DNA of 64,000 nucleotides from assembly GCA_021296265.1 (NCBI GenBank), contig JAGWAT010000006.1:1840-65839 (forward strand), given 5' to 3'. The position numbers and the translations under genes were made by a program. Each line of letters begins with the position of its first letter. Positions within the stretch are counted from its first letter, which is position 1. This DNA comes from Alphaproteobacteria bacterium. GTDB lineage: Bacteria; Pseudomonadota; Alphaproteobacteria; TMED109. The notes below the pieces were generated by a model. It was not told the DNA's origin and did no database searches. It saw only the letters and a program-made list of their open reading frames with translations. Positions 43,529 through 54,099 of the stretch are shown here, in pieces.

Positions 43529-43768
43529 TCACAGGAGGTTGTGCGTGCCGTCGCAATACGGGGAATCGCCCGTCGACTTGCACCCGCACAGGAACACGGT
43601 CTCCGTTTTCTCCGCCTTCCAGACGAACGGTGAAAATTCGGTTTCCCGGTGTGAGCCGTCACACCAAGGCTGGTTGGCGCTTCGGCCGCAAGCACACCAG
43701 GCGTAATTTTTTCCGGCCTCTAACTCGACACTGTACGGCTCAGACTGGGCAACGATTGGGGAACTCAT
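43529..43768 (-). CDS. Double CDGSH iron-sulfur domain protein
   Basis: 79 residues with two CDGSH-type [2Fe-2S] motifs in tandem: CACGRSANQPWCDGSH and CGCKSTGDSPYCDGTH. Each has the three-Cys, one-His ligand set of mitoNEET-like clusters. The bacterial double form is typically about 75-80 residues, matching. Such proteins are thought to act in redox sensing or cluster/electron transfer. The start ATG at 43768 has a purine-rich AGGAGGAT upstream. First gene of an operon with two hydratase paralogues. Confidence 0.93.
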   Translation of the reverse strand: MSSPIVAQSEPYSVELEAGKNYAWCACGRSANQPWCDGSHRETEFSPFVWKAEKTETVFLCGCKSTGDSPYCDGTHNLL

Positions 43769-44039
43769 TCGCAATCCTCCTTGCGGCGGCAGTGTACTTG
43801 GCCAACCTAGGTCCGCAACGCCGGAGCGACCCTGATCCACAACGAGCAGGCAAATTGGCGTCTGGCCAGTCAGCGGCACTCGCAAGCAGGCCCGGCGAGA
43901 GGGTCCGACCATGAGCTTCGAGCCGGCTCTGCGCGAGGGCTAGCCAAGGCCAGGGCGAACATCGATCGCCACGCCAACTCCGATCACGCTGATGCGGCGG
44001 CGGAAAGTAGGGGCTGGACAGGTGATGTAATCTGCGGGG

Positions 44040-44360
44040 ATGGCTCGTTCCGCTGGCAAGAGATACACGCGAATAGCCCGAGGCTGGGCCGGCCTCACCA
44101 TCGCCATTGGCCTGTTGGTCGCGCAAGTCGCCTTCAGCCACCATGCGGTGGAGTACGGCCACGACGAGCATTCGCACGACGAGCACGGGTCTTGCGTGTT
44201 CCCGCTGGTTTCTGCGGAGCTTTTTCTTCTCCCTCTAGCTCTGCCGGATCGCGCACCCAGCCTTCTCGAGCCACCAGCCATAACCAGTTCGCTTCCGGTC
44301 GCAACCCGCGCATCGAGAGCGAACTGCATACGTGCTCCTCCGACGTCCCCCCTGACCTGA
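44040..44360 (+). CDS. Small His-rich exported protein heading the metal locus
   Basis: 106 residues. A membrane/signal segment (GLTIAIGLLVAQVAFS) is followed by a His/Asp/Glu cluster (HHAVEYGHDEHSHDEHGSC), then a less hydrophilic part FPLVSAELFLLPLAL. GCGGGG lies close before the ATG. The His cluster could bind zinc or another transition metal. It precedes the His-rich porin and ABC genes, all plus strand, so a metal-related role is inferred. No named family. Confidence 0.55.
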   Translation: MARSAGKRYTRIARGWAGLTIAIGLLVAQVAFSHHAVEYGHDEHSHDEHGSCVFPLVSAELFLLPLALPDRAPSLLEPPAITSSLPVATRASRANCIRAPPTSPLT

Positions 44361-44475
44361 AATCTACAAGCTCGGGTGCCAGTGCCCGACTCAACAGCAT
44401 GGACCTCGCATGTGCTCGCCGCAGGGTGGGTGTGCGCATGGACCATTGCCCTCGCGTGTACGTACGGAGAACACC

Positions 44476-46014
44476 ATGTCAATCCTTCGTGGACTAGCCA
44501 GACTCTTGTTTCTGGCAACTCCGATCATTCTGATTGCACTTCCAGCGCAATCGGAAACAGACCAGGCGCCCACCGCAGCAGAACTCGCTGCGGAAATCCA
44601 AGCGCTGAAACAAGACTACGAAACCCGCATCCGGAACTTGGAGGCCCAGCTTGATGCCATCAATGCGCAATCTGCTGCGCCCCAGCCGCCGGTAAGCGGC
44701 ATCCGCAGCCAGGACAACACCTTTAATCCTGCCATCGGGGTCATTCTCAATGCCGCCGTGGCGAACTTTTCGGCGCCGGCATCGGAGATCTCAGGGTTTC
44801 AGCTCGGGCACGAAAGCGAACGTGGTCAAGAGGGTATCGCCCTGATCGAGACCGAATTCAATTTCTCCGCCAACATCGACGACAAGTTCTTCGGTAGTAC
44901 CACTATCGGTGTTCATACCGATGAGGGCGCAGAAACTTTCGAAATCGAGGAGGCCTATGTCCAGACCCTGCCTAGCGCCGGCCTGCCGGACGGTCTTCGC
45001 GTCAAAGCTGGGCGCGCGTTCTGGACGTTGGGATACATGAACGAACATCATCCCCACGCGGATGATTTCGCTGATCGGCCGCTGCCCTACCGGGTGTTCA
45101 TTGACAAGTCATACAACGACAACGGCCTGGAATTTGCCTACGTGTTTCCGACCGACATGTTCGCGGAAACCGGCGTTGGCCTGTTCCGGGGCGACGATTT
45201 CCCCTTTGGTGGCTCGGACGACGGCATCGGCGCCTCCTCTGCCTACGCCCGGCTCGGCGGTGATATCGGCTCCAACCAGTCGTTTCGGATCGGCGCGTAC
45301 GTGTTGAACGGTTCAGCCGCCATGCGCGGGGGTGGCCACGCCCATGGTGCGGAAGGCGATGCCCACGGGGAAGAGGACGAGCACGGGCACGAAGACGAGA
45401 TGCACGCGGACGAGGATGAGGACGAGCACGGGCATGAAGACGACATGCACGCGGACGAAGATGAGGACGAGCACGGACACGAGGACGAGATGCACGCGGG
45501 GGAGGACGAGCACGAAGGTGAACACCACGATCCGTTCGCGGAAGGCTTGTTCACCGGGGACTCGACGCTCTACGGCTTCGACGTCCGCTACACGTGGGCT
45601 CCCACCGGCAATCCCCGCGAGCAGGAAATCACCCTTCAGGGCGAGTATTTCTGGCGGGCCGAGGATGGCTACTACGCCGTCACGGAAGGCGACGAAACGG
45701 AATTCACTCAAGTCGACGGGACAAGCAGTGGCTGGTACGTGCAAGGCACCTACAAGTTCAGCCGTGCCTGGCGAATCGGTGCCCGTTACTCACGCCTCGA
45801 TCCGATCAGTGCGGCCGACGTGACGAGCGATGACGAGTACGAGGTCGAACACAGCCCCTCCACCGTCTCGGTAATGGGCGACTGGACCAACAGCGAGTTC
45901 GGCCGGATCCGACTGCAGTTCAACCGGGAATCCGTCCACCACGAGGAGACTGACAACCAGCTGTACCTGCAGTACATCATGAGCCTTGGCGCCCACGCAG
46001 CGCATGCGTACTGA
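44476..46014 (+). CDS. Outer-membrane porin-like protein with His/Asp/Glu repeats
   Basis: 512 residues from the ATG at 44476. A signal peptide (LARLLFLATPIILIALPAQS) is followed by a coiled coil (LAAEIQALKQDYETRIRNLE) and a beta-barrel-like sequence ending in an aromatic-rich terminal region (RESVHHEETDNQLYLQYIMS). Residues 301-345 are three near-perfect 15-residue repeats of DEHGHEDEMHADEDE, with more His/Glu on both sides, likely in an external or periplasmic loop that gathers metal. It lies just upstream of ZnuA-like and ZnuB-like genes, suggesting a TonB-independent outer-membrane zinc entry route (inference). Confidence 0.75.
   Translation: MSILRGLARLLFLATPIILIALPAQSETDQAPTAAELAAEIQALKQDYETRIRNLEAQLDAINAQSAAPQPPVSGIRSQDNTFNPAIGVILNAAVANFSAPASEISGFQLGHESERGQEGIALIETEFNFSANIDDKFFGSTTIGVHTDEGAETFEIEEAYVQTLPSAGLPDGLRVKAGRAFWTLGYMNEHHPHADDFADRPLPYRVFIDKSYNDNGLEFAYVFPTDMFAETGVGLFRGDDFPFGGSDDGIGASSAYARLGGDIGSNQSFRIGAYVLNGSAAMRGGGHAHGAEGDAHGEEDEHGHEDEMHADEDEDEHGHEDDMHADEDEDEHGHEDEMHAGEDEHEGEHHDPFAEGLFTGDSTLYGFDVRYTWAPTGNPREQEITLQGEYFWRAEDGYYAVTEGDETEFTQVDGTSSGWYVQGTYKFSRAWRIGARYSRLDPISAADVTSDDEYEVEHSPSTVSVMGDWTNSEFGRIRLQFNRESVHHEETDNQLYLQYIMSLGAHAAHAY
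45376..45510 (+). repeat. Three tandem 45-bp in-frame repeats
   Basis: Units at 45376-45420, 45421-45465 and 45466-45510, each encoding D-E-H-G-H-E-D-(E/D)-M-H-A-(D/G)-E-D-E. The copies differ at a handful of bases. Being in frame and in the porin, they could expand or contract without disrupting the protein. Confidence 0.93.
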
Positions 46015-46027
46015 TCAGGGCCGAGCG

Positions 46028-46957
46028 ATGCAGTTGAAACGACTCGCGCGGGCACTCTGTGTCATCGCGCTGGCCGTGCCGGGGATGGTCAAACCATCCC
46101 CGGCCTCCGCTGAAGTACAGATTTTCGCCTGCGAACCGGAGTGGGCGGCTCTGGCCTCGGAAATCGGAGGCGACGTGGCGCACGTCTACTCGGCGACGCA
46201 TGGCCGCCAAGATCCGCACTACATCCGGGCACGCCCCAGTCTCATTGCCCAGGTACGCCAGGCCGATCTCCTGTTTTGCTCCGGGGCAGGCCTGGAGGAA
46301 GGCTGGCTCCCGGTGCTGCTGCAGCGTGGAGCACGGGTGACCATCCAGCGTGATCAACCCGGTCACCTGATGGCGAGCGAGCATGTCCGAATGCTGAACC
46401 CTCCCAGCCTCGTTGACCGCAGCCAAGGGCACGTGCATGCGGAGGGCAATCCACACGTGCAGCTCCTGCCGGAGAACATTGCTTTCCTTGCGACCGAGCT
46501 GGCCCGCCGGCTCACGGTGATCGACCCGGACAACGCCGAGATGTATCGCCGTCAGCTGTCGATTTTCCAAGAGCGTTGGAAGGACGCTACTGCCAACTGG
46601 ATGGAACGGAAGTCTCATCTGGAAGGCATGCCCGTCGTTGTGCGCCACGAAGCGTGGGCCTATCTGTTCGAGTGGACCGGCATCAAGCAAGTTGCGTCGA
46701 TCGAACGCCTGCCAGGTGTCCCGCCGACCGCCAACCATCTGCAATTGGTGTTGGAACTGGCCCGAAATGCAGGTGCCGTCGCCATTCTCCGTGCTCCGTA
46801 CGAGCCTTCCGAGGGGATGGAGTGGCTTTCCGACAAGGCCGGAATCCCGATTGTCGATCTGCCCTTTACCGTCGGGGGGCAGGAGGGTGTCGATGACCTG
46901 TTTGACCTCTTTGAAGTGACGATCACACTGCTTGAAGAAGTGCGTGATCAATACTGA
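46028..46957 (+). CDS. ZnuA-like metal ABC transporter substrate-binding protein
   Basis: 309 residues from the ATG at 46028. A signal peptide (LARALCVIALAVPGMVKPSP) precedes a cluster A-I binding protein: CEPEWAALASEIGGDVAHVY, TATHG-like ATHGRQDPHYIRARPSLIAQ with His ligands, SQGHVHAEGNPHVQLLPENI and VVRHEAWAYLFEWTGIKQV. The three His positions fit Zn/Mn sites. It starts 14 bases after the porin stop, so is co-transcribed with it. Confidence 0.9.
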   Translation: MQLKRLARALCVIALAVPGMVKPSPASAEVQIFACEPEWAALASEIGGDVAHVYSATHGRQDPHYIRARPSLIAQVRQADLLFCSGAGLEEGWLPVLLQRGARVTIQRDQPGHLMASEHVRMLNPPSLVDRSQGHVHAEGNPHVQLLPENIAFLATELARRLTVIDPDNAEMYRRQLSIFQERWKDATANWMERKSHLEGMPVVVRHEAWAYLFEWTGIKQVASIERLPGVPPTANHLQLVLELARNAGAVAILRAPYEPSEGMEWLSDKAGIPIVDLPFTVGGQEGVDDLFDLFEVTITLLEEVRDQY

Positions 46958-47732
46958 GATCCTTGAGATCGTCCTGCCGGCGTTCGCGACCGGCCTCCTG
47001 TGTACGGCGCTGCATGCGCCCCTTGGCATTGAGGTCTTGAGGCGGGGAATCGTCTTCATCGACCTTGCCACGGCACAGGTGGCCGGCGTCGCGATCGTCG
47101 CGCTGAATATCTGGGTCATGGATCCGTCGTGGGCGGGAACGCAGGTCGCGGCATTTGGGGCGGCAGTGGCGTTCGCCTTCCTGTTCCGGTGGATTGAACG
47201 GACCATCCCCGACGAGCAGGAGGCGGCCATCGGCAGCTGCTTCATCGTCGCGGCATCGGTGACACTGCTGCTGCTCGTCAACAGCCCGCACGGAGGGGAA
47301 AAGCTCGAGCACGTTCTCTCGGGCCAGATCCTGTTCACGTCATGGTCGGACCTGGCGGCATTCCTGCCGGTGTACCTGCTGGTCGCGGGACTGTGGCTGG
47401 GGTATCCGGCTCTCCGGACCGGACAGGGTTTCTTCCTACTGTTTGCACTTGCGGTCACCGCATCCGTTCAATTGCTGGGCGTGTACGTCGTCTTCGCGAG
47501 CCTGATTCTGCCGGCAATGGCCGGGCGCCGGGCGGACGGCTCGTACAATCTGTGGCGTGCCCTGTTGAGCGGCGGCGTTGCGGTCATTGCCGGAATCCTG
47601 GCATCGACCGCCGCTGACCTTCCCGCCGGGCCGTTCCTCGTGCTCTGTTTTGCCGTCTCCGCCATCGTGGCCCGCGTGATTACCCACTGGATGTCCCGCC
47701 CCACTTCCCGGTCCGATCTCCACCAGGCCTGA
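46944..47732 (+). CDS. ZnuB-like metal ABC transporter permease
   Basis: 262 residues from a GTG at 46944 overlapping the ZnuA-like gene end; a TTG at 46932 is also possible. About 7-8 membrane segments: EIVLPAFATGLLCTALHAPL, LATAQVAGVAIVAL, AAIGSCFIVAASVTLLLL, LFALAVTASVQLLGVYVVFA and SLILPAMAGRR, the ABC-3 family permease pattern. It should form the inner-membrane path for the metal. No matching ATPase (ZnuC) gene is found next to it; the following 0.5 kb holds an AbiEii remnant. Confidence 0.88.
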   Translation: MINTEILEIVLPAFATGLLCTALHAPLGIEVLRRGIVFIDLATAQVAGVAIVALNIWVMDPSWAGTQVAAFGAAVAFAFLFRWIERTIPDEQEAAIGSCFIVAASVTLLLLVNSPHGGEKLEHVLSGQILFTSWSDLAAFLPVYLLVAGLWLGYPALRTGQGFFLLFALAVTASVQLLGVYVVFASLILPAMAGRRADGSYNLWRALLSGGVAVIAGILASTAADLPAGPFLVLCFAVSAIVARVITHWMSRPTSRSDLHQA

Positions 47733-47787: not shown

Positions 47788-48290
47788 GCGCGCTTGCCCA
47801 TCCAGATCGATGTCGGTTTCGGCGACGTGATCACGCCTGAGCCAATCGAGATCGAATATCCCGCCCTTCTCGACGCGCCGGGCGCCCATCCTGCGCGCGT
47901 ATCCGCCAGAAACCGTCGTCGCCGAGAAAGCTGAAGCGATCGTATCGCTCGGTATCGGGAACAGCCGCATGAAGGATTTCTACGACCTCTGGATGATCGC
48001 GCAGACATTCGCGTTCGAACGCGACGACCTGGCGGCGGCCATCCGTCGGACCTTCCAGCGGCGCCGAACCCCTTTGCCGGAACAAGTACCTGTCGGCTTC
48101 AGCGATAGTTTTGCCCTAGAGAGAAACCCAGTGGCGGGCTTTCCTCGCGCGCGACCGCCTTGAAGCAACATCCGCTTCACTCGTCCAGGTCATTGATGAT
48201 CTACGCGCCTTCCTGCAGCCCATGCTGACCCGCGCTGAGGTTGCGTCATGGCCTCCCGGAGGCCCCTGGACTGAGGTGAAGTGCCGATAA
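47788..48290 (+). pseudogene. Remnant of AbiEii/AbiGii nucleotidyltransferase toxin
   Basis: Three successive frames give the C-terminal half of an AbiEii-type protein. Frame 1 (about 47788-47880) reads LPIQIDVGFGDVITPEPIEI. Frame 2 (about 47891-48110) reads LRAYPPETVVAEKAEAIVSL, GIGNSRMKDFYDLWMIAQTF and AAAIRRTFQRRRTPLPEQVP. Frame 3 (about 48129-48290) reads QWRAFLARDRLEATSASLVQ and VIDDLRAFLQPML to a TAA. At least two frameshifts and loss of the N-terminal nucleotidyltransferase motifs make it nonfunctional. No AbiEi partner lies beside it. Confidence 0.75.
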
Positions 48291-48618: not shown

Positions 48619-48655
48619 ATTCAGATTTCAGATGCACCGACCAGGTGGGTACGTC

Positions 48656-49459
48656 GTGGACAAGAACTCCCGTTTCGTCGCACTGGCAGCCTTGCGCCAA
48701 CGAATCTCGGCACTGGAACGGCCAACCCAAAAGCGCGTATCTGTCGAACCGGATACCGCATGGCTTCCGGGGATCAAGACGCTGGATGGCGCCCTTCCCC
48801 CCCACGGGCTGACCCTGGGCGCCCTGCACGAAGCAGCCGGCGCCACCGGTGCAGACCGACCGTCAGCCGCAGCCTTCCTCGCCGCCCTTCTGCAGCGACT
48901 GTCGCGCCGCGCCGGACGCGAGACCGTCCTAGTCTGCGAGAGCGGCGCAGGTCGATCCGGCCGTCTGTACGGCTGGGGATGGCGCGACCTCGGCGGCAAT
49001 CCAGCCGCACTGCTGATGGTCCGGGCCCGGCATGACAAGGAGGTCCTATGGGTCATGGAAGAGGGATTGCGCTCCAAAGCCCTGGCGGCGGTGTTCGCGG
49101 CCATCAGGAGCACCGGTTTCACCATGGCCCGGCGGCTGTCGCTGGCCGCCCAGGAAGGCATGACGCCCGCCTTGCTGCTGCGCGACGACGGACTCGTTCC
49201 AACCAGCGCAGCGGCCACGCGATGGCTGATCAGGACTCTCCCCTCCGCTCACGACCCGCTCGACATCCGCGCTCCCGGAGCACCCCGTTGGCAGCTCGGA
49301 CTCGTCCGTTGCCGGGGCGGGCGGCCGGCTCGGTGCGATGTGGAATGGCACCATGAGACGAGTGCTTTCCGTGTGGTTGCCGCGCTGGGCCATCGACCGG
49401 CGGCAGCGCTCGCTGATCAGCAGAGCACACTCCGCTCCGCACTCCTTCGAGCCGGTTAA
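48656..49459 (+). CDS. imuA: SOS mutagenesis protein ImuA
   Basis: 267 residues from a GTG at 48656 that follows AGGTGGG by 8 bases; an ATG at 48632 lies 13 bases after the LexA box with no ribosome site and is less likely. It is a RecA/SulA-like protein: LAALRQRISALERP, WLPGIKTLDGALPPHGLTLG, FLAALLQRLSRRAGRETVLV, then MEEGLRSKALAAVFAAIRST and SLAAQEGMTPALLLRD. ImuA bridges to ImuB and DnaE2 in damage-induced mutagenesis. The 3' end overlaps imuB by about 107 bases. Confidence 0.9.
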   Translation: MDKNSRFVALAALRQRISALERPTQKRVSVEPDTAWLPGIKTLDGALPPHGLTLGALHEAAGATGADRPSAAAFLAALLQRLSRRAGRETVLVCESGAGRSGRLYGWGWRDLGGNPAALLMVRARHDKEVLWVMEEGLRSKALAAVFAAIRSTGFTMARRLSLAAQEGMTPALLLRDDGLVPTSAAATRWLIRTLPSAHDPLDIRAPGAPRWQLGLVRCRGGRPARCDVEWHHETSAFRVVAALGHRPAAALADQQSTLRSALLRAG

Positions 49460-50897
49460 ATCTTCCCCGCTGGTACTGGCGGCCTCCGGTCCACGCGGGA
49501 TGGTGCTGACGGCCATCGATCAGCGGGCCGAACAGGCCGGCCTGCTGCCCGGCATGCGTCTGGTGGATGCCCGTGCCCTGGTGGCCGGGGTCGCCGTGGG
49601 AACGGCGGACCCGGTCGCCGACCAGCAGGTCCTGATGCGGTTGGGATTGTGGTGCGGCCGCTTCACACCCCGCGTCGCATGCGACGGCACCGACGGTCTT
49701 CTGCTCGATGTCACCGGTTGTTCCCATCTGTTCGGGGGCGAGCCGGCGATGATGCAAACCGTTTCGAAACGGCTGACAGGTTTCGGACTGGAGACCCGCC
49801 TGGGGATCACCGATACCCCGGGCGCGGCCCGGGCCTTGGCCCGCTTCGCCCCTGAGTGCCAACGCATCGTTCCCCCCGGCTCCCTCCGGGAAGCCCTGGA
49901 ACCCCTGCCCGTCGAAGCGCTTGGCGTGACGCGCGATGATGCCCTGACACTGCACCACCTGGGGTTGACCACTATCGGGGCGATCACTCGATTGCCGCGC
50001 ACAGCCCTGCTGCGCAGGTTCCCACCCTGCAGGACCGGGAACGGATTGCTTCAGCACCTCGACCGGGTTCTCGGAGACCGGAACGAACATCTCTCCCCTC
50101 TGGTCCCGCCGCCGGTTTATCGCTGGCGCCTCGATTTTGCGGAGCCGGTCATGCACAGAGAGGGATTGGAAACCGCGCTGGTCGACGTGATGACCCGCGC
50201 CACGGCTGCGCTGAAACGCGACCAACGCGGTGCAAGACGACTTGTGCTCTGGTGTTTCGGGATCGATGGAAGCGTAACCGAACGCACCGTGGCGGCATCC
50301 CGGCCGACCCGGGACGCGGATCACCTCCAGCGTCTGTTTGTGAGCGAACTTGAAACCGTGGATCCCGGGTTCGGGATCGATGCCATCGTGCTGCACGCGA
50401 CCTCGGTTGAACCGCTGGTAGCCCGGCAGCTTTTGCTCGACGACGGCCAGCAGGACAATCTTGACCTGCTCATCGACCGGCTCGTGGCGCGCCTGGGAGC
50501 TGGCGCTGTCCGGTGTCCGGTTGCCACCGAGCACCGCTTCCCGGAACAGGCCGAATGCCTTGCCAGACCTGGCGAAGCCTCAACCTTCCCGTCTTCGTAC
50601 CCGGACGTCCCCCCGCGCCCGTTGCGTCTGTTTGAACGCCCGGAGCCCCTGCAGGTCATCGCCCTGATCCCGGATGGCCCGCCGCGCCTGTTCATTTGGC
50701 GACGAGTGCGCTTCCACATCGCCCGGGCCGCCGGCCCTGAGCGCATCGCCCCGGAATGGTGGACGCCGGACAGCTGCCAGGCAACGCGCGACTACTGGCG
50801 CGTCGAAGACACGGATGGCCATCGCTACTGGCTCTACCGTGCTGACCTCCATGGCAACGGCGTCCCGCGCTGGTTTCTCCACGGCCTGTACGGATGA
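49353..50897 (+). CDS. imuB: ImuB, catalytically inactive Y-family polymerase-like protein
   Basis: 514 residues from the ATG at 49353 (MRRVLSVWLPRWAIDRRQRS), which fits the conserved LSVWLPRWAIDR start. It keeps Y-family palm/little-finger features (CDGTDGLLLDVTGCSHLFGG, LGITDTPGAARALARFAPEC) but lacks the conserved catalytic carboxylates of true translesion polymerases, as known for ImuB. ImuB links the beta clamp to DnaE2 and ImuA. The C-terminus ends YRADLHGNGVPRWFLHGLYG. Confidence 0.93.
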   Translation: MRRVLSVWLPRWAIDRRQRSLISRAHSAPHSFEPVKSSPLVLAASGPRGMVLTAIDQRAEQAGLLPGMRLVDARALVAGVAVGTADPVADQQVLMRLGLWCGRFTPRVACDGTDGLLLDVTGCSHLFGGEPAMMQTVSKRLTGFGLETRLGITDTPGAARALARFAPECQRIVPPGSLREALEPLPVEALGVTRDDALTLHHLGLTTIGAITRLPRTALLRRFPPCRTGNGLLQHLDRVLGDRNEHLSPLVPPPVYRWRLDFAEPVMHREGLETALVDVMTRATAALKRDQRGARRLVLWCFGIDGSVTERTVAASRPTRDADHLQRLFVSELETVDPGFGIDAIVLHATSVEPLVARQLLLDDGQQDNLDLLIDRLVARLGAGAVRCPVATEHRFPEQAECLARPGEASTFPSSYPDVPPRPLRLFERPEPLQVIALIPDGPPRLFIWRRVRFHIARAAGPERIAPEWWTPDSCQATRDYWRVEDTDGHRYWLYRADLHGNGVPRWFLHGLYG

Positions 50898-53800
50898 CGC
50901 GCCCTTGTACGCCGAATTACAGACGACCACCAACTTCAGCTTCCTCCGGGGCGGCTCCCATCCCGAGGAGCTGGTGGAACGGGCGGTGGCACTGGGACTG
51001 ACGGCGATCGGCATCACCGACCGGCATTCGCTGGCCGGCATCGTGCGGGCCCACGTGGCTGCCAGGGAGGCAGGAATCCGCCTGCTGGCTGGTGCCCGCC
51101 TTGATCTCGAGGACGGCCTTTCCCTGCTGTGCTACCCGCGCGACCGTGCAGCCTATGGTCGCCTTTGCCGCTTGCTGACATTGGGACAGCGGCGCGCAGA
51201 CAAGGGCAAGTGTCAGCTCCGTCTGAGCGACCTCTGCGCCCATGCCGAGGACCAGGTCCTCATCGTTCTACCCTCTCCCGGCCCGCCCGTGGACACCTTC
51301 GCCGAAAGCCTGACCACGTTGCGCAACCGGCTCACAGGGCCGTGCTACCTGGCCGCTCACATGCTCTACCGAGGCGATGACCGAGCCCGCATCGCCCGGC
51401 TGGGCGGGCTCGCTGACCGCCATGACATGCCGCTGATCGCCACCAACGACGTTTTCTACCACCTCCCTGAACGCCGCCCGCTGCAGGATGTTCTGACGAC
51501 CATCCGCGAACACACGACCGTCCAGAACGCGGGCTACCTGCTGCACGCCAACGCGGAGCGTCATCTGAAGAGCCCGGCCGAGATGACGCGCCTCTTTGCC
51601 GGGAACGAAGCGCTGATCGCCCGCACCATCGAGATGGCCGGATTGATCGATTTCCGTCTCGACGAGCTGGCATACGAATACCCGGACGAGCCCGTGCCGG
51701 TCGGCAAGACCCCGCAGCAGCACCTGGAAGAGCTGACCTGGGAAGGAGCCGTCCGACACTTCCCCGACGGGATTCCCGAGGCCCTCCGCAGCACCCTGGA
51801 ACACGAACTCGCACTCATCGATCAACTCGCCTATGCCTGCTATTTCCTCACGGTGTACGACATCGTGCAGTTCGCCAGGCAGCAGGACATTCTCTGCCAG
51901 GGACGCGGCTCGGCAGCCAATTCGGCGATCTGCTACTGCCTGGGCATTACCGCCGTCAATCCGACCGAGATCGACCTGCTGTTCGAGCGCTTCATCTCTC
52001 CCGAGCGCCGAGAGCCGCCCGACATCGACATCGATTTCGAGCATGAACGCCGCGAGGAGGTCATCCAGTACATCTACGAACGGTACGGTCGAGACCGTGC
52101 GGCCCTGGCCGCGACCGTGATCACTTACCGCGCCCGCAGCGCCGCCCGTGAAGTCGGCAAGGCCATGGGCCTATCCGAAGATGCGGCGTCGGCCCTCGCC
52201 GATTCCCTCAGGCAAAAGGGAGGATTCTCTGAAAAGCGCGTCCGTGAGGCCGGTTTCGACCCCGCCGATCCGGCCCTTCGCATGACCCTTGCCCTGGCTT
52301 CCCAGCTGATGGGGTTTCCCCGCCACCTTTCGCAGCACGTCGGCGGGTTTGTGCTGAGCCGTACCCCCTTGTGCGAAATGGTGCCGATCGGCAATGCGGC
52401 CATGCCGGATCGCACGTTTGTCGAATGGGACAAGGACGACCTGGAAGCTCTCGGATTCATGAAAGTCGACGTGCTCGCCCTCGGCATGTTGACCTGCATT
52501 CGCAAGGCGTTCGCATTGCTGAAACGCCACCGGGGCATCGACCTGAAGCTCTCCGACGTGCCGCGCGAAGACCCGGCGGTTTACGACATGCTTTGCCGGG
52601 CTGACTCCATTGGCGTGTTCCAGGTCGAAAGCCGCGCCCAGATGAACATGCTGCCACGTCTCAGGCCGCGCTGCTTCTACGACCTGGTGATCGAAGTCGC
52701 GATCGTCCGTCCCGGTCCAATCCAGGGTGACATGGTGCATCCCTATCTGCGGCGACGCGACGGCCTCGAACCGGTGGTTTACCCCAAACCCAACCCGGAT
52801 CATGGCCCGCCGGACGAACTGCAAAGAGTGCTGGAAAAAACCCTGGGGGTTCCGTTGTTTCAGGAGCAGGCGATGCGCATTGCGATTACGGCCGCCTGCT
52901 TCAGTCCCGACGAGGCCAATGCCCTGCGTCACTCGATGGCCACCTTCCGGAAACGCGGAACCCTGCACCTGCTCCGCGAGAAGATGCTCGGCCGCATGAT
53001 CAGGCGCGGCTACGACCCGGAGCTTGCGGCCCGCTGCTTCCGCCAGATCGAGGGCTTCGGCGAGTACGGGTTCCCGGAGTCCCATGCCGCCAGTTTCGCG
53101 CACCTCGCCTACGTGTCGTCATGGCTCAAGTGCCACCATCCCGAAACGTTTGCCTGTGCCTTGCTGAACGCACAGCCCATGGGCTTCTATGCGCCGGCGC
53201 AAATCGTGCGCGACGCTCGCGAGCATGGTGTTGAGGTACGGTCCGCCGACATCAACATGAGCCATTGGGACAATTCGCTGGAGCCGACACCCGACGGGCA
53301 TCTGGCGCTCAGGCTTGGCATGCGCCAGATCGGGGGATTGCGCGAACGCGACGCTGATCTCGTGGTCAAGGAACGCAGCCGACGGTACGTCAGTGTCGCC
53401 GATGTTCGCCATCGCACCGGCATGTCGGATACTGCTCTCAAGTGCCTGGCCGAAGCGGACGCCTTCCGTTCCATCGGCCTCGATCGACGACAGGCGCTGT
53501 GGGATGTCCTCGAGGACACGCCCGAACTGCCCCTGTTCGCAGCCCATCTCGAAGCCGGCGACGCTTCAGACATTCCGTTGCCGGTAATGCCGCCGGGCGA
53601 ACAGGTTCTTGCCGATTATCGAGCCCTGCGCCTGTCCCTGAAGGCGCATCCCGTCTCTTTCCTGCGTGGGAAACTTGCGGGCTCAGGCGCCCTGCCGGCC
53701 GAACAGATCAATCGGCACGCCCGCGACGGCCAGCGAGCCACCACTGCCGGCATCGTCCTAGCGCGGCAACGCCCCGGCAGCGCCAAGGGGGTCATCTTCA

Positions 53801-54099
53801 TGACCCTGGAAGACGAAACCGGCGTCGTCAACATCGTGGCCTGGCCCCGAATCACCGAAAGGTTCCGCCGGGCCGTGATGACCAGCCGGCTGGCACTGGT
53901 CAGGGGACGCATTCAGCGCACCGGAAACATCGTCCATCTGGTCGCCGACAGCCTTGAGGACATCACGGGCTGGCTTTCCCTGCTGTCGGAAAACACCGTG
54001 ACGGCTGCCCGGAACCGAACACACCATGCCGCTATCCCCACGACCGCGCGCCATCCGAGGAACCAGCGTGTCATTCCGAGATCTCGAGATTTCCATTGA
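50851..54099 (+). CDS. dnaE2: Error-prone DNA polymerase DnaE2
   Basis: About 1082 residues from the ATG at 50851, which overlaps the end of imuB; the similarity proper begins at [20 protein letters not shown]. It has the PHP domain ([20 protein letters not shown]), palm motifs [20 protein letters not shown] and [20 protein letters not shown], and the fingers [10 protein letters not shown]. The second half includes [40 protein letters not shown] and an OB-fold ending. DnaE2 is a C-family polymerase dedicated to damage-induced mutagenesis, working with ImuA and ImuB. Confidence 0.95.
   Translation: [1082 protein letters not shown]

Follow-up and report, generated by a model that had tools for sequence, protein, structure and literature searches.

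A conserved cassette of porin, ZnuA-like binding protein and ABC-3-fold permease without an ATPase, a probable ATP-independent route for zinc acquisition

How would a permease with the fold of the ATP-binding cassette (ABC) importers bring a metal into the cell when no ATPase is encoded with it? The question is raised by a locus in the window, i.e., the whole stretch of 64,000 nucleotides analyzed here (contig JAGWAT010000006.1 of assembly GCA_021296265.1, from an Alphaproteobacteria bacterium of the TMED109 lineage). In this locus, four plus-strand open reading frames (ORFs) lie head to tail and encode a small His-rich exported protein, a porin, a ZnuA-like substrate-binding protein (SBP) and a ZnuB-like permease. 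An earlier, sequence-only reading had described these genes in this order, with no ATPase in the operon, as a transition-metal route across both membranes; all four ORFs were confirmed, no ATPase gene was found in the operon, and the idea of a dedicated route was supported by the linkage of the porin to ZnuA and ZnuB homologues. We consider it likely that the cassette is an ATPase-independent zinc-acquisition route made of a dedicated porin, a binding protein and an ABC-3-fold permease, while transport by the cassette and its energy source are what we infer from the evidence below.

The permease matched PF00950 (ABC-3) in two pieces (E=1.1e-15), and its AlphaFold2 model, with a predicted local distance difference test score (pLDDT) of 93.5, presented the full ABC-3, or type II importer, fold. 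The nearest solved fold was that of PsaBC (7kyp, template modeling score 0.69), followed by BhuUV, HI1471 and BtuCD, and a sequence search of the PDB with the permease returned a single match, the ZnuB of 9oko. All significant fold matches were ABC importers, and the membrane subunits of the TRAP and TTT transporters gave no match in sequence or structure. In 38 genomes, however, the cassette permeases skipped positions ~143-169 of the ABC-3 profile, which the canonical copies matched end to end. A joint alignment placed the missing block at 19 residues, with the canonical consensus 'WRpLLaltvdedlArveGvpv', and the spacing of the invariant Gly and Pro that flank the gap was 62-64 residues in 59/59 cassette permeases, as opposed to 82 or 94 in 22/22 canonical ones. 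At this site, the model contained only a tight turn (helices 135-154, 156-159 and 161-179). We take the missing block to be the cytoplasmic loop with the coupling helix of type II importers, the counterpart of that in FecCD/BtuC. Coupling helices are the elements that join the permease to the ATPase in PsaBC (PMC11779740).

The metal site of the permease was also found to differ. MntC requires a membrane triad of Asp47, His51 and Asp94 (PMC8487065), and a passage of PMC11779740 cites Asp46 and His50 as those used by PsaC. The corresponding cassette residues were Gln46 (59/59, versus His in 21/22 canonical permeases) and Glu94 (59/59, versus Asp in 22/22), together with an invariant Asp41 that the alignment sets one position away from the canonical Asp, and His25, new relative to the canonical permeases, was present in 58/59. 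The triad is thus rewritten from Asp-His-Asp to Asp-Gln-Glu in all 59 aligned cassette permeases. These permeases group together as one clade (support 100/100), and their branch measures 3.8 changes per site. The system evolves under purifying selection and is no relic, since the ratio of nonsynonymous to synonymous substitution rates (dN/dS) within the genus lay at 0.09-0.24 in the permease and at 0.17-0.27 in the SBP, and no stops were seen in the window or its same-genus relatives.

To what extent the absence of the ATPase is a general trait was answered from the neighborhoods of the related loci, using an ABC-ATPase profile built here and 20 canonical permeases of the same genomes as controls. 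An ABC ATPase was encoded within 1.5 kb of 20/20 canonical ABC-3 permeases but in only 3/95 cassette loci, and never inside the cassette; two of these three were on the opposite strand, and the other (locus L058) was the ZnuC of a neighboring ordinary znu locus. The latter, an ordinary znuA/znuBC at 2579-5294 of L058 in genome G023, lies ~3 kb from the ATPase-less cassette, such that both kinds stand side by side. ATPases encoded near the cassette in 17/95 loci were considered as its partners and rejected, as none was inside it and most scored as unrelated LolD or other types. Absence of the ATPase is, therefore, a conserved trait of the whole clade and not decay, and the missing ZnuC of the sequence-only reading, which holds for the operon, is not a simple loss, the permeases also being devoid of the coupling loop.

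When 85,000 species genomes were scanned with a profile, at least 552 relatives of the permease were found, and the cassette without an ATPase gene was found in Alpha-, Beta- and Gammaproteobacteria, Dadabacteria, Desulfobacterota, Planctomycetes, Lentisphaeria and Campylobacterota. Of the 95 loci examined, all had the permease, 94 the SBP, 93 the porin and 48 the small protein. The porin homologues thus co-occur with the Znu homologues in about 93 of 95 loci, and the condition by which the sequence-only reading would have been refuted, namely porin homologues that do not co-occur with Znu genes, does not hold. Of 397 Pseudomonadota genomes sampled evenly, each at least 90% complete, 37 carried such a permease, and the arrangement can no longer be called unusual, as it was at first. 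Every one of the six other genomes in the genus carries the cassette too, as do several in the family. A plasmid of Sulfurovum mangrovi (Campylobacterota) and Vibrio campbellii both carry porin, SBP and permease with no ATPase, and in S. mangrovi a small exported protein also precedes them. A more distant tier of permeases, some without a porin, was likewise ATPase-less by neighborhood. In two loci of this tier (L175 and L183), the SBP and permease pairs without a porin lie near an ORF resembling a MoxR/CbbQ-type ATPase. Some same-genus loci (L059-L063 and L070) have the order porin1-SBP1-porin2-SBP2-permease, in which porin2 is truncated or frame-broken, and in G023 further broken copies lie ~19 kb away.

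With regard to the metal, the SBP, a cluster A-I binding protein, matched PF01297 (ZnuA; E=3.8e-37), and its zinc-site histidines, His64, His143 and His207, were kept in 102/102 aligned sequences, as was His137, which is additional to the zinc site. Cys35 (position 46130) and Cys84 (46277) were found in 97-100 of the 102 cassette SBPs and are absent from ordinary ZnuA; it is possible that they form a disulfide or an extra metal ligand near the site. Zur-box-like sites with at most two mismatches were found in 11/86 upstream regions, compared to 1.4 in shuffles, and the boxes were perfect in three alphaproteobacterial loci (L085, L086 and L103), in Thalassotalea (L145) and in Vibrio (L071). Other palindromes were seen upstream of L065, L067 and L093, and of the same-genus L062. 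Fur and NikR-like boxes occurred upstream at chance level only, and Rfam found no riboswitch upstream of the relatives. In five loci, the gene of a Fur-family regulator adjoins the cassette, and in seven a set of DUF3299, FtsX/MacB-like and LolD-like genes lies near it; genes of the DUF3299/FtsX type are Zur-regulated in Pseudomonas. The perfect Zur boxes in five lineages point to zinc, which would then be the substrate in the species of the window as well.

The porin was modeled as 16 strands preceded by an N-terminal coiled coil (pLDDT 81.5), with OprP (2o4v) as the best solved fold (E=5e-13). Its matches in Pfam and NCBIfam were at chance level, and the OprO/OprP family PF07396 gave no match up to E=1. 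In the motif NExHxHxxDFxDxPL, which lies between model strands 174-182 and 214-223, His192 and His194 were invariant in the alignment, as were His507 and His510 of the C-terminal GAHAAHAY; by the model, the motif is likely an outer loop at the pore-constriction position. The three His/Asp/Glu repeats (EHGHEDEMHADEDED, EHGHEDDMHADEDED and EHGHEDEMHAGEDEH), on which the sequence-only reading had focused, were confirmed as exact 15-residue copies. Structure prediction, which that reading had suggested as a means to place them, put them in a disordered loop (residues 289-337, pLDDT<50); a count of the strands, with the two termini placed in the periplasm, makes this loop probably extracellular. 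The repeat itself is a variable extra and is not conserved. Since the acidic His-rich stretch ranges from long to absent among the homologues, its role is probably that of an additional collector of metal, outside the core. The conserved core consists of the gene set, the absent ATPase and the invariant histidines of the porin. The small protein belonged to no family in Pfam or NCBIfam, and its homologues stand upstream of the porin; one His, a Cys (in most sequences) and the C-terminal R[AG]PP are nearly invariant, and many carry CxxC. It is perhaps a periplasmic zinc chaperone.

In the proposed mechanism, Zn2+ would cross the outer membrane through the dedicated OprP-like porin lined with invariant histidines, its entry being assisted in some species by the acidic His-rich outer loop, and would then be captured by the ZnuA-like SBP and passed to the ABC-3-fold permease. 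The membrane potential or a coupled ion would probably drive import, since the permeases of this clade have lost the coupling loop and no ATPase is ever encoded with them, and the SBP would provide affinity and direction. As with ZIP proteins, the membrane potential could plausibly draw Zn2+ inward on thermodynamic grounds.

It is to be considered whether the cassette is instead an ordinary ABC zinc importer that shares an ATPase in trans. Shared ATPases occur in some sugar ABC importers, and the host genome (G000; 2.5 Mb, 77 contigs, 93.8% complete) does contain, on contig 51, an ordinary znuA divergent from znuC-znuB, a complete znu locus with the znuC that the sequence-only reading had suggested looking for, as well as a Mn/Zn-type ABC locus on contig 45. 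The ZnuC of contig 51 could serve as the shared ATPase, but none of the 59 aligned cassette permeases has the loop that would couple to it, and 13 of the 38 cassette-bearing genomes have neither a canonical ABC-3 permease nor ZnuC, the ZnuC query giving only a background of 64-80 bits there, as opposed to 160-470 bits where ZnuC exists. An ATPase in trans is thus unlikely in our estimate. Nonetheless, several points do weigh against the ATP-independent route. The assignment of the missing block as the coupling loop draws on family knowledge and alignment, the known complexes being of other proteins. Because Mn-type ABC-3 ATPases score just 65-95 bits with the ZnuC query, that test excludes ZnuC itself and not every ABC-3 ATPase, and an ATPase that is unrelated, or has diverged strongly, could serve the permease in trans; in the genomes studied here, the Mn-type ABC-3 ATPases always adjoined their own canonical permease. 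Lastly, the Zur box, another element that had been suggested for a search and that is clear in the relatives, was found neither in the window nor in the Shewanella locus L131.

The uneven occurrence of Zur boxes, together with the two conserved Cys of the SBP, would also suit the same ATPase-less mechanism serving another metal (Mn, Cu, Co or Fe) for at least some members of the family, which we hold to be quite unlikely in view of the five lineages with perfect boxes, the adjacent Fur-family regulators, the neighbors of the DUF3299/FtsX type and the fully retained three-His site of ZnuA. That the SBP and permease are a zinc sensor or a docking site feeding periplasmic proteins, such that the porin alone transports and nothing is imported into the cytoplasm, would agree with a cassette that encodes no energy source and with metal-site residues different from those of ordinary permeases. 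The permease has the full importer fold, however, its membrane-embedded Asp, Gln, Glu and His are invariant or nearly so, as a permeation path would require, and the cassette is the sole recognizable dedicated zinc importer in eight genomes, these being the 8 of the 13 above in which no ZIP importer was found; the sensor or docking role is, accordingly, very unlikely. A decaying znu operon remnant beside a dead toxin gene, as the AbiEii remnant that follows and the broken extra copies of one relative (L070) might suggest, has practically no probability left, being already refuted by the conservation data: the substitution rates and intact frames described above, and an identical architecture in several phyla.

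The positions of the genes and of their salient features are collected in Table 1, for which the translation starts were picked by homology; the GTG start of the permease overlaps the SBP stop. Next to the operon, the gene that had been read as a decayed toxin is a truncated AbiEii type IV toxin gene of which a C-terminal piece is left, and a CDGSH iron-sulfur protein gene adjoins the small His-rich gene on the other side. Three ORFs after the operon resemble an ImuA-ImuB-DnaE2 mutagenesis cassette, which is also found 3' of the cassette in most same-genus relatives.

Table 1 Features of the locus and its surroundings, in window coordinates
Feature	Position	Strand	Basis
Small exported His-rich protein, 106 amino acids, ending in R-A-P-P motif	44040..44360	+	ORF and homologues
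Outer-membrane porin, 512 amino acids, N-terminal periplasmic coiled coil and 16 strands	44476..46014	+	AlphaFold2, homologues; start ATG 44476
Conserved porin loop NExHxHxxDFxDxPL, residues 189-204	45040..45087	+	Porin alignment
Three 15-residue His/Asp/Glu repeats, porin residues 302-346	45379..45513	+	Exact in sequence
Porin C-terminus GAHAAHAY	45988..46011	+	Porin alignment
ZnuA-like periplasmic binding protein (SBP), 309 amino acids	46028..46957	+	PF01297
ABC-3-type (ZnuB-like) permease without ATPase-coupling loop, 262 amino acids	46944..47732	+	PF00950, fold model; start GTG 46944
Permease site where ordinary ABC-3 permeases have ~19 extra residues (coupling loop)	47394..47424	+	Alignment
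CDGSH iron-sulfur protein	43529..43912	-	PF09360
AbiEii toxin gene remnant	47969..48160	+	PF08843, E=2.2e-7
ImuA-ImuB-DnaE2-like trio	48632..54099	+	Middle ORF: IMS Y-family polymerase families; other two by eye

A search confined to the open-access literature (subscription papers and preprints were not covered) found neither an ABC-3 permease described as lacking its ATPase nor an account of this porin operon. We lean, although only slightly, towards regarding the cassette as a new class of transporter that depends on a binding protein but not on ATP, to be set beside TRAP and TTT. It would have arisen once from an ABC-3 importer by loss of the ATPase and the coupling loop, and would now provide many Gram-negative phyla with their main zinc importer, equipped with a porin of its own. 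If so, an ABC importer fold has turned into an SBP-fed secondary transporter or channel, offering a natural test of what the ATPase contributes to ABC import; the zinc supply of many marine and symbiotic bacteria without ZnuABC would be explained; zinc would have an outer-membrane porin to itself that works independently of TonB; and the annotation 'metal ABC transporter permease' would need correction in hundreds of cases.

Among the known systems, ZnuABC, PsaABC and MntABC (PF00950, PF01297) are the closest, sharing a homologous permease fold and a homologous SBP with the three zinc-site histidines; the cassette nonetheless fails as a member of the ABC transporters on the ATPase and the ~19-residue coupling loop, and differs further in its separate clade and in an Asp-Gln-Glu triad where Asp-His-Asp is essential in MntC (PMC8487065). 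The Zur-regulated PA4063-PA4066 and zrg clusters also serve Gram-negative zinc acquisition, and the DUF3299, FtsX/MacB-like and LolD-like set lies near seven cassettes, but these clusters consist of other proteins, encode their own ATPase and have no ABC-3 permease. The OprO/OprP-type substrate-specific porins resemble the cassette porin in the 16-stranded barrel and the N-terminal coiled coil, whereas the latter falls outside their Pfam family, and its His motifs and operon partners suggest metal and not phosphate. Finally, the TRAP and TTT transporters combine a periplasmic SBP with a membrane carrier and no ATPase (PMC8276074), as is proposed for the cassette, although their membrane fold and substrates are unrelated to those of the cassette.

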